Assembly: GCF_023223645.1 (NCBI RefSeq)
Contig: NZ_JALKBY010000012.1
Span: 1-64,000 of the forward strand
DNA: 64,000 nt
Direction: 5' to 3'
Origin: Natroniella sulfidigena
Lineage (GTDB): Bacteria; Bacillota; Halanaerobiia; Halobacteroidales; Halobacteroidaceae
In this document: positions 31,060 through 37,696 of the stretch, in pieces
Layout of the letters: each line of letters opens with the position of its first letter
Numbering within the stretch: the first letter of the stretch is position 1
Made by a program: the position numbers and the translations under genes
The notes under the pieces: model-generated
Told to the model about the DNA's origin: nothing
Database searches by the model: none
The model's input: only the letters and a program-made list of their open reading frames with translations

Positions 31060-33093
31060 ATGAAAATTTTAAGCTTTGTACCTGGTCGAATTAGATTAAA
31101 AATAGCTGAATTGTATAAAGATGATCAATCAGCAGAGATTATGGAAATATATTTGCGAGGGCTGACTGGTATTAAGAAGGTAAGGGCCAACCCAGTAATT
31201 GCTACTTTAGTGGTTGAGTATGAGCGAAAGAAGTTAACTAGGGAAGACGTAGTAGGAGCGATTAAAGATTTTGAGGTTGATGATTATTTAAGTTACTTAC
31301 ATGAATATTATACAGATTATTATCAGGCCCAGAGGAACTTTCTTGCTGCTCGAGATAAGACTTTTTTATTTGCTGGAATCTTTTTGTTCTACAAGATTAA
31401 AGGTTTGTTATGGGGGAAATCTATTTTAAACAAGAATTTAACCTTTTTAATAGGTGCTGCAATTGTGAGCCTAGTCAGTAGTTATCCAACTTTAAATAAA
31501 ATTTATCAAAGAATGAATCAGTCTATTACAGAGTTTGCTGATGACTTACTTATCTGGTCAGGGATTTTGTTGACCTTGTTAAGGGAGAGTACAGGATTAG
31601 TCTTTTTATTTTTAAAATCGATTACCTCTTTGATTGGAGAATATTCTAATTTACAGTTACAACAGGTCTTATTAAGAAGTGATCGAAATCGTTTGGAATT
31701 AGTCTGGTATAACCATAAGCAACAAGAATACTTATTACCATTAAAAGAAGTAGAAAGTGGTGATCTTCTTTCATTTTATGAAGAAGAAATGATCTTGGTT
31801 ACAGGCACTATTAAGGAAGGAACTGCTATTGTAAGCCTTAGTTATCGAACTGGGCAACCAGAAGTAAAAGAGCTAAAGGAAGGGGCCAAAGTTGCTCAGG
31901 GGATGCTTCTTTTAGCTGGAGAAATAAAGGTGGAAGTTGATCAAGTTTCAATTGAGCGAGAAGTTAAGTCAGAGCAAGTAAAGATGCAGTTGCGAGAAGA
32001 GGTTGACACTTATCAACAGCAATCCTTGTATACTGTTTTTAGTTTAGCAATCTGTAGCTATCTAATCACAGGAGCTTTGGTTGGCCCGTTGAGTGTGTTA
32101 TTAATAATGTCTCCTAGTGCAACCGAGGTCGCTTTAAATGCTGGGTTAGCTAAGTATGCCAAGTTATTATTAAAGAATAATATTATGTTAAAAGATGTTA
32201 ATAAAGTTGAAAAGATCATAACGGTTGATAATATTGTATTCGATAAGACTGGAACATTGACCTCAGGAAGATTAGAAGTAGTAGAGATGGAATTGAGTGA
32301 TGATGCTTATTGTTACGAAGATTTAAAGTTGGTCTGTCAACAAAGGTTTGATTTGGTTGAACAGGATCGGATTACTTCAATGACACCTGCTAAGAATGCT
32401 GAATTATTGTTGGTCAAGGAATTAAAATTTGTAGGTCAATATTTGATAGTTGATATAGGTACTGCTGATAAACTAATAGGTAAGGTAAGATTAAGAGAGC
32501 AGTTGTGTTCTGGAAGTAAGGAAGTTATTGCTCAGTTGAAGAGAAGAGGAATGAAAGTAGAATTATTAAGTGGAGATAGGATAGCAAATGTAGAGCATAT
32601 TGCTCATCAATTAGAGATAGAAGAATATCATGGAGAGCTGACAGCTCAAGATAAAATGGATCAGATTATTAACAAAAATAGAAATACTATTATGCTAGGG
32701 GATGGAATAAATGATTTAGCTGCTATGGAGAGATCTGATTTGGGTCTGACATTTAATCAATCTGAATGTAAGGAAGTAGTAGCTTCAGCAGATTGTATTT
32801 TGTTAGATAAAGATTTGAACTTGCTTTCTAAATTATTAGTTTTATCAGAAGAAAGTTACCGTCAGATAAGATTCAATATAGTTGTGGGCCAAGGGTTTAG
32901 CCTATTGCTTGGTTCAATTGCTCTCTTTGGTGCTATCAACCCATTTTTAGCTAAGAGTTTAAGTACCTTAAACTCAATTCTAGCTATTTTAAATAGTGCA
33001 AGAATTTTGCAGATTGATCCTAAATCTATTGTAGATGACAAAAGTGAAGGAGTTGATCTTGATCAAGAAAATATTCAACTTATTGAGCGGTAA
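31060..33093 (+). CDS. Degenerate P1B-type ATPase with N-terminal PGRIR domain (FezB-like candidate)
   Basis: 677 residues from ATG 31060 (GTG 31048 coincides with the AGGTG site). LSFVPGRIRLKI opens an HMA-like domain of about 70 residues, then spans near 105-195. The actuator loop reads SYRTGQPEV, with Gln where TGE is invariant in active enzymes. The membrane metal motif is SPS (IMSPSATEVAL) where P1B pumps have CPx. DKTGTL is intact, but the nucleotide domain is about 85 residues and lacks the HP motif. GDGIND is present. Ferrosome-associated FezB ATPases share a PGR-type N-terminus, as I recall. Possibly a modified or regulatory pump. The next gene overlaps it. Confidence 0.75.
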   Translation: MKILSFVPGRIRLKIAELYKDDQSAEIMEIYLRGLTGIKKVRANPVIATLVVEYERKKLTREDVVGAIKDFEVDDYLSYLHEYYTDYYQAQRNFLAARDKTFLFAGIFLFYKIKGLLWGKSILNKNLTFLIGAAIVSLVSSYPTLNKIYQRMNQSITEFADDLLIWSGILLTLLRESTGLVFLFLKSITSLIGEYSNLQLQQVLLRSDRNRLELVWYNHKQQEYLLPLKEVESGDLLSFYEEEMILVTGTIKEGTAIVSLSYRTGQPEVKELKEGAKVAQGMLLLAGEIKVEVDQVSIEREVKSEQVKMQLREEVDTYQQQSLYTVFSLAICSYLITGALVGPLSVLLIMSPSATEVALNAGLAKYAKLLLKNNIMLKDVNKVEKIITVDNIVFDKTGTLTSGRLEVVEMELSDDAYCYEDLKLVCQQRFDLVEQDRITSMTPAKNAELLLVKELKFVGQYLIVDIGTADKLIGKVRLREQLCSGSKEVIAQLKRRGMKVELLSGDRIANVEHIAHQLEIEEYHGELTAQDKMDQIINKNRNTIMLGDGINDLAAMERSDLGLTFNQSECKEVVASADCILLDKDLNLLSKLLVLSEESYRQIRFNIVVGQGFSLLLGSIALFGAINPFLAKSLSTLNSILAILNSARILQIDPKSIVDDKSEGVDLDQENIQLIER

Positions 33094-33253
33094 AGGTATC
33101 TTATTTTCGGTAGGTTTAAGTTTAGCAGGATACTTATTAGGGCCTTTATTAAAGGAGATGTTAGAGAATGATCAAGTTACTAAAGAAGATTTTACTGAGT
33201 TGACTGCTCAAGAAAGAGAGTTATTTTTAAAGGATAAAGACAGTTTAAAATAA
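33059..33253 (+). CDS. Small membrane protein with YLLGP segment
   Basis: 64 residues from TTG 33059; AAGGAG lies 6 bases upstream, inside the ATPase gene, so the two are translationally coupled. An earlier ATG at 33035 has no site. ILFSVGLSLAGYLLGPLLKEML is one hydrophobic helix, followed by an acidic tail. The helix matches VLGIGIAAATYLLGPTLKK in the small protein at 37352. DUF5132-type proteins near metal-pump genes have this build. Function unknown. Confidence 0.6.
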   Translation: MIKKIFNLLSGKGILFSVGLSLAGYLLGPLLKEMLENDQVTKEDFTELTAQERELFLKDKDSLK

Positions 33254-33288
33254 AAAGCACTCCTGCAATTGCAGGAGTACTTTTTTTT
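33252..33288. terminator. Bidirectional terminator between convergent genes
   Basis: AAAAAGCACTCCTGCAAT and ATTGCAGGAGTACTTTTT form a near-perfect stem that serves both the + and - strand genes. Confidence 0.85.
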
Positions 33289-33306
33289 GAGAGAGGTAAG
33301 TTTTAA

Positions 33307-36300
33307 TTAGCAAGTAGTTGTAGGTTGAGTTATATCTTGTCGCGGAGTAGAGTGAATTAAATTGATTAAGCCAGAGATAGATAGAATAATAATCCAATCA
33401 ATCAACTGTAAAGGTACAGTACCGAAAAGTTGCATTAATGGTGAAAAATAAATGCTGATCAGCAACAGTAAACAAGAGGTTGTAACTGCTGGGACTATAT
33501 ACTTATTGGCTTTAATCGGTTTATTCCTACATTGAAAAACATGGATCATTTGATTAATTACTAAGTTAGCATAAGCAAGGGTGCTAGCTTTGGTCAGATT
33601 GCCGGTAGTAAAGTAGTTAGTTAGATATAAGCCCGCTGTACTAGTTCCCAATAAGAAGCCTTTAAATAGTATCTCTGATAAGAGATTCTGATCAAGAATA
33701 CTCTGTTGTCCATCTCTTGGTGGCTGTTTCATATTATTTTGATCTGCTGGTTCAATCCCTAATGATAAGGCGGGGAAGCCTTCGGTAATAAAGTTGATCA
33801 GTAACAATTGACTAGCAATTAAAGGTGGTGGCAAACCTAAAAGTGCAGCAGTGAAAATAGCAATCGCTTCGCCAATATTTCCAGCTAAAACATATTTTAA
33901 GAACCTTTTAATATTACTGCTGATACTTCTGCCCTCTTTAATGGCATCTACAATTGTAGTGAAATTGTCATCAGTTAAGACAATAGCTGATGATTCTTGG
34001 GCTATATCAGTTCCAGTTTGGCCCATAGCAATACCGATATCTGCTTCTTTGATGGCCGGAGCATCATTGACCCCATCACCTGTCATAGTAACTACATGAC
34101 CTTTCTTCTTTAAGGTCTTAACAATTCGTAGCTTCTGTTGAGGTGATGTCCGGGCAAAGATTGAAATCTTATCAATTCTGTCAGCTAATTGTTGATCAGA
34201 GAGATTGTCTAATTGTTGGCCCGTCAAGATCTGATTTTTTTTGGTTGATTCTAATAAATTAAGTTTTTTACCAATAGCTTTTGCTGTTCGTTTATGATCT
34301 CCAGTAATCATTATTACTTTAATTCCTGCTTGATGGCATTGCTTAATTGCATCCTTAACTTTAGGACGAGGAGGATCGATCATACCTGTTAAGCCTACAA
34401 AAACCAGATTTTCCTCAATTATATGATCAGTAGTTGGTTTATAATCTAATTTTTTGTAAGCAAAGCCCATTACCCTCAGCGCTTTATTACCCATTTCTTG
34501 TACTTGCTCAGTTATCTTTTTCCTATCTTTTGTAGTTAATTTTCTGACTTGCTCTCCATCAAAAATTTTGGAGCATTTGGCAAGGATGACATCTGGTGCC
34601 CCTTTAACATTGATTGAATAGTTATTAGAGTCATCTTGGCAAATAACTGTCATTTTTTTTGCTTCTGAATCAAAAGCAATCTCTTCTTCGCGGGTATAAC
34701 AATCTAAATCTGCAATCTCTAAATCTGCTTTTTGAGCTAATACCCGCAGAGCGCCTTCAGTAGGGTCACCAATAATCTTTAAAGAGTCATCATTCTTTTC
34801 ATATGATGTGTTATTACATAATGAACCTATGGTTAATAGTTGTTTTAAATCTTGTTGGTGTTGAGGGTTGATAGTTTCTTGATTACAATAAAATTCCCCT
34901 GTAGTAGAATAGCCTCTACCTGTAATTTTATACTTATGATTGATAGTTTGGACTTCTGTTACAGTCATCTGTCCTGTAGTTAAAGTTCCTGTTTTGTCTG
35001 TACAAATAATATCGGTACAGCTTAGATTTTCAGTGGCAGATAGTTGTTTTACGATAGCTCCTTTTTCTGCTATTTTTTTAACTCCAAAAGCCAAAGAGAT
35101 AGTCAAGACTGTGGCCAATCCTTCTGGAATAGCCCCAATAGCTAAACCTAGTCCTGTCTTGATCATCTGGATTAATGGTTGACCAGTTAAGAGACCGGTA
35201 ATTACAATTCCACTACAAATAGCTAAACAAGAGCAAGTAATATTTTTAGCCAATTGCTCCAAATCTCTTTCTAAAGGAGTAGATTGTTGCTCAGATGTAT
35301 TAACCTTTTGAGAGATATAACCCATCTGGGTATGGTTACCTGTAGCTACTACAATAGCTTTTGCCCTTCCTTTAACAATACTTGTACCCATAAAGGCCAT
35401 ATTCTTTCTGTCTGCTAATGGCCTAGTGGATGTATAGTCAATCTTATGGGTTTTAGAGATAGCTTCTGATTCTCCGGTTAAGGTTGATTCATTGATTTTT
35501 AAATTAGAGCTATCAATCAATCGAGCATCAGCGGGGACGATATCTCCTGTTTCCAAAGAGATAATATCACCTGGGACTAATCTTTTAGAATCGATACTTC
35601 TTGTTTTATTATTTCTAGTTACTTTAGTTTCTGTTTCAGAATATTTCTGTAAAGAAGCTAATGATTTATTGGCTTTAAATTCTTGCCATGACCCTAATAA
35701 TGCTTCTAAAATTGTAATAGCTAAGATGATTAAAGCATCACCAAATTGGCCTAATAGAAAAGAAGTAAGGCTGGCTCCTAATAGTAATTTGATGATAAAA
35801 TCTTTAAATTGGTCTAAGAATAGTCGCCAAAAGCCCTTTTTTTTCTGTTGGTTGAATTGGTTTGGCCCTAGATTTTCAATTATTTGTTGGGCTTGTTCTG
35901 GTTTTAATCCTTGCTCAGGATCACTATTTAAAGTTTTGATGATTTGTTGTAGGGTTAGTTTATACCATTCTTTCTGTTTAGGTATTTCACTAGAAGTTTT
36001 AGTTGTCTCAACTGAATCTTGTTCTAAGGTAGGAGCGACATGATTAATTACTTTTCTTTCTTTTAAATTTTTATATTTTATTAGTAGATAACTCAATTTT
36101 TTAATAATTGCTTTGGCTGAAACTTGATTAGGCTGATAATAGATTAGGATAGAGTGGCTATAGATGTTAGTTGTTATTCGATTAATACCACTAAGCTTAA
36201 GCAATAATTGCTTGATTTTTTGGGCTAAAGAGTTATTTTGTTTAATTTCCTTGCATTTAAAGCGGATTCGACCTGGTAGATAAGAAACAATATTTGGTTG

Positions 36301-36330
36301 GTAAACAACTGAGTTTTCTTCATTAATAAT
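33307..36330 (-). CDS. Ca2+-type P-type ATPase with N-terminal PGRIR domain, AUU start
   Basis: About 1007 residues. The pump is complete: TGESEAIS (actuator), the PEGL box in AIPEGLATVLTIS, DKTGTLTTGQM, the nucleotide-domain KGAPDVILAKC, GDHKRTAKAIG and TGDGVNDAPAI, about ten spans: a P2A Ca2+-ATPase. The frame continues 42 codons upstream of the first usual start (TTG 36204) with YLPGRIRFKCKEI and an HMA-like helix, and meets AAGGAG 7 bases before an ATT at 36330. No ATG, GTG or TTG lies between. The same PGRIR opening occurs in the divergent neighbour at 31060. Probably moves Ca2+ or Mn2+. Confidence 0.85.
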   Translation of the reverse strand: MINEENSVVYQPNIVSYLPGRIRFKCKEIKQNNSLAQKIKQLLLKLSGINRITTNIYSHSILIYYQPNQVSAKAIIKKLSYLLIKYKNLKERKVINHVAPTLEQDSVETTKTSSEIPKQKEWYKLTLQQIIKTLNSDPEQGLKPEQAQQIIENLGPNQFNQQKKKGFWRLFLDQFKDFIIKLLLGASLTSFLLGQFGDALIILAITILEALLGSWQEFKANKSLASLQKYSETETKVTRNNKTRSIDSKRLVPGDIISLETGDIVPADARLIDSSNLKINESTLTGESEAISKTHKIDYTSTRPLADRKNMAFMGTSIVKGRAKAIVVATGNHTQMGYISQKVNTSEQQSTPLERDLEQLAKNITCSCLAICSGIVITGLLTGQPLIQMIKTGLGLAIGAIPEGLATVLTISLAFGVKKIAEKGAIVKQLSATENLSCTDIICTDKTGTLTTGQMTVTEVQTINHKYKITGRGYSTTGEFYCNQETINPQHQQDLKQLLTIGSLCNNTSYEKNDDSLKIIGDPTEGALRVLAQKADLEIADLDCYTREEEIAFDSEAKKMTVICQDDSNNYSINVKGAPDVILAKCSKIFDGEQVRKLTTKDRKKITEQVQEMGNKALRVMGFAYKKLDYKPTTDHIIEENLVFVGLTGMIDPPRPKVKDAIKQCHQAGIKVIMITGDHKRTAKAIGKKLNLLESTKKNQILTGQQLDNLSDQQLADRIDKISIFARTSPQQKLRIVKTLKKKGHVVTMTGDGVNDAPAIKEADIGIAMGQTGTDIAQESSAIVLTDDNFTTIVDAIKEGRSISSNIKRFLKYVLAGNIGEAIAIFTAALLGLPPPLIASQLLLINFITEGFPALSLGIEPADQNNMKQPPRDGQQSILDQNLLSEILFKGFLLGTSTAGLYLTNYFTTGNLTKASTLAYANLVINQMIHVFQCRNKPIKANKYIVPAVTTSCLLLLISIYFSPLMQLFGTVPLQLIDWIIILSISGLINLIHSTPRQDITQPTTTC

Positions 36331-36489
36331 GTAGTCACTCCTTTCCCTACTTTCTTATCAAGTAGTATTACCTAGATTGGTATTTGAATACACAGAAATA
36401 GAGTTAGAAGCAGGAAAATCATAAGTAATATTTTCCTGGAAGCCATGATTGAATATTTTATTTTTTTTAGTTTATACTATCAAATAGTA

Positions 36490-36630
36490 TAGAATGGTTA
36501 AGTTTAAGCCTGAGTAAATTAGAATTAAGTTTAAGTTTAAGTCTAAGTCTAAGTAAGAGCTAAACCCTTATGTTTTTAGTGGTTGACTTAACCTCAGACT
36601 CAGCCTTAAACTTAAGCTATATATCAATAT
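36490..36630. repeat. TAAG-word repeat island in the ATPase-small-gene gap
   Basis: The 413-base gap between the ATPase start and 36744 has no gene. TTAAGTTTAAGTTTAAGTCT on the left mirrors CTCAGCCTTAAACTTAAGCT on the right, and CTTAAACTTAAGCTATATAT is also found at 50890. It is followed near 36690 by AACTATCCACTATCAATTAT-type words. Confidence 0.6.
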
Positions 36631-36743
36631 AGATCAACTTTCAGTTGTTATTCTATTAAGAGCAAAAGTTAATTTAAAAGGTTTTAACTATCCACTATCA
36701 ATTATCAACTATACACTATAAGAGTTGTGAGGGAGGATTATAA

Positions 36744-36974
36744 ATGAAAGAAAAGATAACTGGTGATTTAAATCAAACAATTAGATTGGTTAAAGAAAAC
36801 TTATTAACTAGTTTTAAATATATCAAAGAGAATCCCGAAGAAAGAAAAGAGGTTATCAATATTTGGAGAGAATATATCAAAAAACTGTGGTCTGAAACTA
36901 CTAATTTGAGCGAAAAGTATCAGGAAAAAGGAATTGTTAAAGCAATAACCAAAGTGTTTATGTTTGGACGTTAA
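36744..36974 (+). CDS. Small hypothetical protein, 76 aa
   Basis: A GAGGGAGG ribosome site precedes the ATG. The product is helical and charged, with DLNQTIRLVKENLLTSFKYI and EERKEVINIWREYIKKLW; no membrane span. It starts a three-gene set whose other members carry hydrophobic N-termini, 72 bases before the next gene. I do not recognise it. By position it belongs to the ATPase cluster, probably as a cytoplasmic partner. Confidence 0.55.
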   Translation: MKEKITGDLNQTIRLVKENLLTSFKYIKENPEERKEVINIWREYIKKLWSETTNLSEKYQEKGIVKAITKVFMFGR

Positions 36975-37046
36975 AAGACTTTAAATCTTTTGAGTTTGCC
37001 AGTTTGAATTTAATTATAAATTGTGAATCGAAACGGGGGGGGTTAA

Positions 37047-37322
37047 ATGATTCCTTTAGGTATAGTATATGGAGTTGCTACTTTTTGTGGACTGAAGAAA
37101 CTAAAAAAGCCAATTAGAAAAGCTGCGGTATCGACTACTAGTCAAGTATTTAGTGCTGCAGATTTGACTAAGGAAGCGGCATATAATTTCAAAGAAGAGG
37201 TTGAAGATATTATAGCAGAAGCTCAATATGAGAATATGAAGGGCAACCAGGACTTCTTTGCAGAAGATCTTGACTTAGAAGATGATTTTATGGAACAGGA
37301 GTTTAATGATCAGCTAGAATAG
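37047..37322 (+). CDS. Small protein with hydrophobic start, 91 aa
   Basis: IPLGIVYGVATFCGLKKLKK is a short hydrophobic segment followed by basic residues, then a helix (KAAVSTTSQVFSAADLTKEAAYNF) and a very acidic tail (EEDLDLEDDFMEQEF). A GGGGGGG site precedes the ATG. The middle part resembles the LKKNARNVAVKG helix of the next gene only loosely. Likely membrane-associated; no known family. Possibly co-transcribed with its neighbours. Confidence 0.55.
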   Translation: MIPLGIVYGVATFCGLKKLKKPIRKAAVSTTSQVFSAADLTKEAAYNFKEEVEDIIAEAQYENMKGNQDFFAEDLDLEDDFMEQEFNDQLE

Positions 37323-37351
37323 GGTAGCTAAGTTAAGAGGGGAGGCAGAAG

Positions 37352-37696
37352 ATGAAGTTTTTAAAGCCATTTGGGACTCAAAACTTTGTGTTAGGTATTG
37401 GAATAGCTGCTGCAACTTATTTATTAGGGCCAACTTTAAAGAAAAATGCCAGAAATGTAGCAGTTAAAGGGATGCAGGGAGCATTATCAGCTGGCGGTAT
37501 GGCTTCGCAAGTGATGGATGATGGAAAAGAGAAGATGTCTGGTTTAGTTGAAAATATGTCAGGTAGACGAGCAGATCAAGAGATGGCTATGATTTATAAT
37601 GAGTTGAAAGAAGAAAGAGAGCAGATTAAAGAGTTGGTTAGTATTGTAAAAGACCTGCAACAGGAAGTAGCTGATATAAAGAATGAAACAGAATAA
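37352..37696 (+). CDS. Small membrane protein with YLLGP segment and coiled coil, 114 aa
   Basis: VLGIGIAAATYLLGPTLKKNA is a Gly/Ala-rich span, followed by AVKGMQGALSAGGMASQV, a helix typical of DUF5132-type proteins, and from about residue 70 a coiled coil (DQEMAMIYNELKEEREQIKEL to VADIKNE). The YLLGP helix is shared with the 64-residue protein at 33059 on the other side of the locus. RBS GAGGGGAGG. Family guess is by pattern. It ends before a hairpin terminator. Confidence 0.6.
   Translation: MKFLKPFGTQNFVLGIGIAAATYLLGPTLKKNARNVAVKGMQGALSAGGMASQVMDDGKEKMSGLVENMSGRRADQEMAMIYNELKEEREQIKELVSIVKDLQQEVADIKNETE

Follow-up and report, generated by a model that had tools for sequence, protein, structure and literature searches.

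Natroniella sulfidigena encodes two P-type ATPases of different families side by side, and both of them begin with the same N-terminal domain. Why should pumps of two classes carry one domain, and what do the small proteins encoded around them contribute? The window is the whole stretch of DNA analysed here, 64,000 nucleotides of contig NZ_JALKBY010000012.1, and all positions refer to it unless they are preceded by the handle of a comparison locus.

Layout of the locus

The locus contains the following features:

31060..33093 (+): P1B-like ATPase of a degenerate "type B", 677 aa, ATG start at 31060; DKTGT and GDGIND are kept
about 31063-31263 (+): HMA_2 domain of the P1B-like ATPase (Pfam PF19991)
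33059..33253 (+): 64-aa protein with a single hydrophobic helix containing YLLGP; its gene and the 3′ end of the P1B-like gene overlap
33259..33278 (+): terminator-like hairpin and T run between the two convergent genes
33307..36330 (-): P2A (Ca2+-type) ATPase with N-terminal HMA_2; TGES, PEGL, DKTGT and GDGVND intact; apparent ATT start
36055-36291 (-): HMA_2 domain of the P2A ATPase (Pfam PF19991)
36744..36974 (+): S76, 76-aa protein without membrane helix, from an unannotated family recurring beside HMA_2 ATPases
37047..37322 (+): PAC, 91-aa PacL/DUF1490/DUF6110-like membrane protein with the motif EEVEDIIAEAQ
37352..37696 (+): TCC, 114-aa protein with a PAC-like membrane helix (YLLGP) and a predicted C-terminal coiled coil

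In the genome (G000; 2.6 Mb, 32 contigs) the cluster is flanked by a nitroreductase gene on one side and by a type II secretion/pilus cluster on the other. The genes for S76, PAC and TCC form a three-gene set (36744-37696, +) that is divergent from the P2A gene; the 64-aa gene starts with TTG and has GGAG six bases upstream. An earlier note on this DNA had described two ATPases of different families with a common HMA-like N-terminus, surrounded by four tiny proteins. Both observations were borne out: the common domain is HMA_2, which opens both ATPases (E-values 4.8e-11 and 1.7e-12; both matches pass the gathering cut-off), and four small ORFs (64, 76, 91 and 114 aa) are present. A genome-wide profile search yielded two HMA_2 matches, both in these ATPases. 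Because they are the only ones in the genome, their sharing of one locus is not due to chance.

All six genes, two for the ATPases and four for the small proteins, stand in the same order in the one congeneric genome compared (L033); outside the genus, the P1B-like gene was not found in the genomes of the order and class examined. Imperfect inverted repeats of TTAAGTTTAAG units lie at 36489-36631 in the divergent intergenic region and match no Rfam family above the gathering score. No Rfam match to a manganese or other riboswitch was found upstream of the P2A gene.

The small proteins and recurrence of the module

DUF1490 is the PacL family, whose member PacL1 keeps the zinc pump CtpC stable and clustered in Mycobacterium tuberculosis, and DUF6110 proteins are typically encoded together with P1B6 pumps (PMC9374683). 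PacL proteins cluster pumps via GXXG helices and bind the pump N-terminal domains via acidic repeats; in M. tuberculosis several P-ATPases are bound by them at the N-terminal domain (PMC9374683, PMC13043812). PAC matched DUF1490 with an E-value of 2.5e-5 and 24.7 bits, just under the curated cut-off of 28.4, and DUF6110 with an E-value of 0.0025, likewise below the curated cut-off. When a profile of Bacillota PAC relatives was aligned with a mycobacterial PacL1 encoded beside CtpC, hhalign gave an E-value of 7e-5 and a probability of only 63 over one acidic segment, in which EEVEDIIAEAQ stands opposite VADVVAEAR. G9, E58 and A59 are conserved in the PAC alignment, and both the glycine of the transmembrane helix and the acidic A/E segment are present. 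Judged from these similarities, PAC is a PacL relative of the DUF1490/DUF6110 kind. A histidine-rich C-terminal metal-binding motif is a feature of PacL1, and PacL2 does not bind metal; no such motif was found in the window PAC, which ends in acidic residues without histidine. The kinship of PAC to PacL and DUF6110, together with the binding of pump N-termini by PacL, supports by analogy the earlier suggestion that the shared N-terminal domain serves as a common docking site.

The YLLGP helix that had been noted as common to the 33059 and 37352 proteins held up in a shuffle test: the alignment score of this segment was reached by none of 2000 shuffles, also when the hydrophobic segment alone was shuffled. 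The alignment of the 37047 and 37352 proteins was likewise not reached (0/2000), and no measurable alignment between the 37047 and 33059 proteins was obtained in the same test. S76 belongs to no Pfam or NCBIfam family above cut-off. Two PacL-like proteins elsewhere (L065:11855-12517 and L134:8904-9440) carry an N-terminal ferritin/rubrerythrin-like helical piece, identified by weak Pfam matches.

A neighbourhood search showed that PAC is encoded near HMA_2 P-ATPases. Among the loci taken by HMA_2 matches in 399 genomes of the phylum, PacL-like proteins adjoin the HMA_2 ATPases in nearly every fetched locus, usually together with an S76 relative; this co-occurrence count is partly circular, since the profile seeds were drawn from some of the same loci. 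In the sample, about 20 Bacillota genomes contain relatives of the module, with PAC beside an HMA_2-bearing P1B and/or P2A ATPase and usually S76. The set of the window, namely PAC, P1B, S76, TCC and a divergent HMA_2-bearing P2A, recurs in G141, G176 and G411, all three from one family. As an exact set it is rare, whereas the module as such is not unique. A scan of named genomes with DNA patterns derived from the type-B alignment, which amounted to general P-ATPase motifs, had no type-B relatives among the matches listed, but a mycobacterial PacL1-CtpC pair and DUF6110-P1B6 pairs.

In a separate search the S76 family was found in 27 of the 399 genomes, and 18 of these have it at most about 7 kb from an ATPase with HMA_2 (counted by hand from two tables). 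In the other nine there is no nearby ATPase or a contig end cuts the locus, and some of them retain a TCC or PacL-like partner. S76 occurs, with or without TCC or PAC, in the absence of a nearby ATPase in G281, G304, G429, G353, G432, G064 and G228; therefore, the small proteins may have other partners and are not strictly tied to pumps. Loci with S76 and TCC, or S76 and a PacL-like protein, and no ATPase nearby include L120:7803-8162, L121:6754-7388 and L124:5754-6343. Proteins of about 220-250 aa without a Pfam family are encoded beside these pumps at L064:9885-10583, L129:4108-4809, L071:10640-11344, L078:11762-12511 and L134:9772-10428 and are possibly one further partner family.

The two ATPases and their fusions

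The P2A protein has TGES, PEGL, DKTGTLT and GDGVND intact. Its closest solved relatives are the Listeria Ca2+-ATPase LMCA1 and SPCA1. Of the ion-site residues, TM5 keeps N..E and TM6 reads N..TE, with Glu at the position of the Asp in SERCA and LMCA1; LMCA1, in contrast, lacks the TM5 Glu, and the HMA_2 domain sets the window protein apart from both relatives. From these motifs the P2A pump looks active, with Ca2+ as the likeliest ion and Mn2+ as a possible one. P2A pumps without HMA_2 occur across the order, the HMA_2-bearing pump being an additional one. The PGRIR frame of the gene is open back to two stop codons and offers no ATG, GTG or TTG before the domain. A candidate start is the ATT at 36328-36330 (-) behind AAAGGAG, an arrangement kept in the sister species, and the gene thus appears to begin with ATT; alternatively, it may be read by a frameshift from an overlapping ATG frame.

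The P1B-like protein forms a clade (100/100) with the copy of the sister species and three proteins of two other families, separated by a wide score gap from all other P-ATPases of the sample. Throughout this type-B clade the TGE of the actuator domain, whose glutamate drives dephosphorylation, is replaced by TGQ, the CPx of TM4 by [CST]P[MS] (SPS in the window protein) and the HN motif of P1B6 pumps in TM6 by AKS. The nucleotide domain is reduced as well: from DKTG to SGD it measures 109 residues in this genus versus 143-157 in 26 comparison proteins. About 45 residues of the ATP-binding domain have been lost, the His-Pro included; the E..H(P/S) motif, kept in 26/26 comparison proteins, is absent in the window genus. 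DKTGT, SGD and GDGIND are retained in the window protein, and the sister species has DKTGIL. An AF2 model built on 28 sequences (pLDDT 77.8, pTM 0.70; a model from 5 sequences was poor) has the overall P1B fold, with ATP7B, CopA and ZntA as its nearest structures. The dN/dS of the gene between the window and the sister species is about 0.18, near the aroE value and similar to that of neighbouring genes, which rules out pseudogene decay and indicates that the gene is under purifying selection. Taken together, the motif changes and the reduced nucleotide domain make it improbable that the protein works as a normal pump; residual phosphorylation is possible, DKTGT and GDGIND being kept. Elsewhere, P1B-like proteins of about 590-613 aa with HMA_2 and without DKTG are encoded at L063:10627-12399, L064:7880-9721 and L079:7123-8904.

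Single ORFs of 1528-1636 aa that fuse a P1B-like N half to a Ca2+-type P2A C half occur in five genomes, which belong to four families:

L069:8438-13024: P1B-P2A fusion
L070:8235-12854: P1B-P2A fusion
L077:4141-8787: P1B-P2A fusion
L078:2980-7695: P1B-P2A fusion
L082:5258-10168: P1B-P2A fusion

DKTG is absent from the N halves of the fusions in L069, L070 and L077. The C half of the L078 fusion falls into the same P2A clade as the window pump (99/98), and its N half matches the window P1B-like protein with an E-value of 6e-36. Such fusions are "Rosetta stone" evidence, and the neighbouring P1B-like and P2A proteins therefore probably work as one unit.

The FUPA24 pumps CtpH and CtpI may have a similar architecture. 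In CtpH/CtpI-like proteins of one mycobacterial genome (L234:1714-6540 and L235:2203-6858) the N half matches the P1B profile with E-values of 3e-15 and 1e-10, a feature that they share with the Bacillota fusions. In the window, however, the halves are separate genes, each with HMA_2, and the mycobacterial match is weak and long-branched, so that these proteins were not placed reliably in the P2A tree. On the strength of the profile matches they look like a diverged version of the P1B-P2A pair.

A proposed pump platform and its alternatives

The explanation that we consider probable is a PacL-organised, effluxosome-like platform, on which a P2A calcium-type pump is combined with a pump-derived partner subunit. 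It is based on the domains, homologies and gene content of the locus, the recurrence of the module, the catalytic loss under purifying selection and the fusions elsewhere. From these we infer a physical assembly, the ion, a non-pumping role of the P1B-like protein and a role of S76. PAC, TCC and the 64-aa YLLGP protein would cluster in the membrane via their glycine-containing helices, and the two ATPases would be bound at their HMA_2 domains by the acidic segment EEVEDIIAEAQ of PAC. The working pump would be the P2A protein, most likely for Ca2+ export and possibly for Mn2+. The P1B-like protein, having lost normal ATP binding and dephosphorylation, would act as a pump-derived partner or regulatory subunit that, non-pumping or slow, stabilises or regulates P2A. 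S76 might be a soluble cytosolic adaptor of the same module.

Among the known systems nearest to this arrangement is the M. tuberculosis effluxosome with the pairs PacL1-CtpC, PacL2-CtpG and PacL3-CtpV. In both, a P-ATPase that opens with an HMA-like domain (AGRMR in the case of a mycobacterial CtpC) has as its gene neighbour a small protein of the DUF1490/DUF6110 kind, with one helix and an acidic A/E segment. In the window, however, this domain is also found on a P2A Ca2+-type pump and the P1B protein is degenerate; furthermore, PAC lacks the His motif of PacL1, and S76 and a coiled-coil protein are added. To our knowledge the PacL platform idea has been demonstrated only in mycobacteria, and the present reading carries it over to Bacillota, to a module that includes a Ca2+-type pump. 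This reading offers a candidate, testable reason for the occurrence of one N-terminal domain in pumps of two classes and names S76, an unannotated small-protein family, as a candidate pump partner. It also suggests what the oversized N-terminal half of CtpH, CtpI and other uncharacterised FUPA24 pumps may be, and that a pump which no longer works can be retained as the partner subunit of a working one.

A stronger version of the platform reading can be put forward tentatively, and we regard it as possible but somewhat doubtful. Here the degenerate P1B would be a constitutive partner subunit of the P2A pump, the two forming an obligate heteromeric P-type ATPase on a PacL-like scaffold, and the FUPA24 (CtpH/CtpI) N halves would be the same pseudo-pump fused in.

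Rather unlikely, in our estimate, is a common PacL-type platform for two pumps that work independently of each other on different metals, as with CtpC, CtpG and CtpV in M. tuberculosis, the P1B-like protein pumping despite its reduced nucleotide domain. The retained motifs DKTGT, SGD and GDGIND of the window protein and the preserved P1B fold of the AF2 model agree with this, as does a type-B protein (G142/G208) that has a full-length nucleotide domain and adjoins a canonical CPC pump. Against it stand the TGE to TGQ exchange throughout the clade, the DKTGIL of the sister species and the loss of E..H(P), though the latter is confined to this genus.

That a Ca2+ ATPase with HMA_2 and a P1B relic in decay are chance neighbours without joint function is very unlikely. 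Beyond the genus, the locus is absent from the genomes of the order and class that were examined, which would fit a recent acquisition, but the sister species has the same arrangement, the dN/dS is like that of the neighbouring genes, and the pairing and the fusions recur across families; this recurrence already largely refutes such a reading.

Least of all do we expect a ferrosome-like iron compartment, the possibility raised in the earlier note; the P1B-like pump would then load iron into membrane vesicles shaped by the small proteins. The likeness to fez clusters lies in a P1B-family ATPase with small membrane proteins: P1B6 ATPases are usually accompanied by DUF6110 proteins (PMC9374683), and C. 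difficile ferrosomes require the membrane protein FezA and the transporter FezB, as described in PMC12574912. Some PAC relatives elsewhere have ferritin-like N-terminal pieces, and in L135 feoAB-like genes have an FSC-type P1B nearby. However, the window P1B-like protein has SPS in TM4, AKS instead of the HN motif in TM6 and a crippled ATP-binding domain, and it falls outside the separate group (100/100) of DUF6110-linked P1B6 pumps, which have YSC or FSC in TM4. FezC is known from Desulfovibrio/Desulfurispirillum clusters. It is described as a DUF4405-like cytochrome (PMC10979944), and a genome-wide search found no DUF4405 (FezC-type) protein. FezA and FezB of C. difficile are, according to PMC12574912, Fur-repressed; no match to the 19-bp Fur box within 3 mismatches was found in the window, a search that a diverged box would escape. 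A second, P2A-type ATPase further distinguishes the window from fez clusters. On a comparison of features, namely the P1B6 motif, the clade and the missing partners, the ferrosome reading is not supported and was rejected. A better candidate for an iron-linked system is the L135 locus (L135:4447-10504), in which an FSC-type P1B and separate HMA_2 proteins are encoded beside feoA/feoB-like genes.
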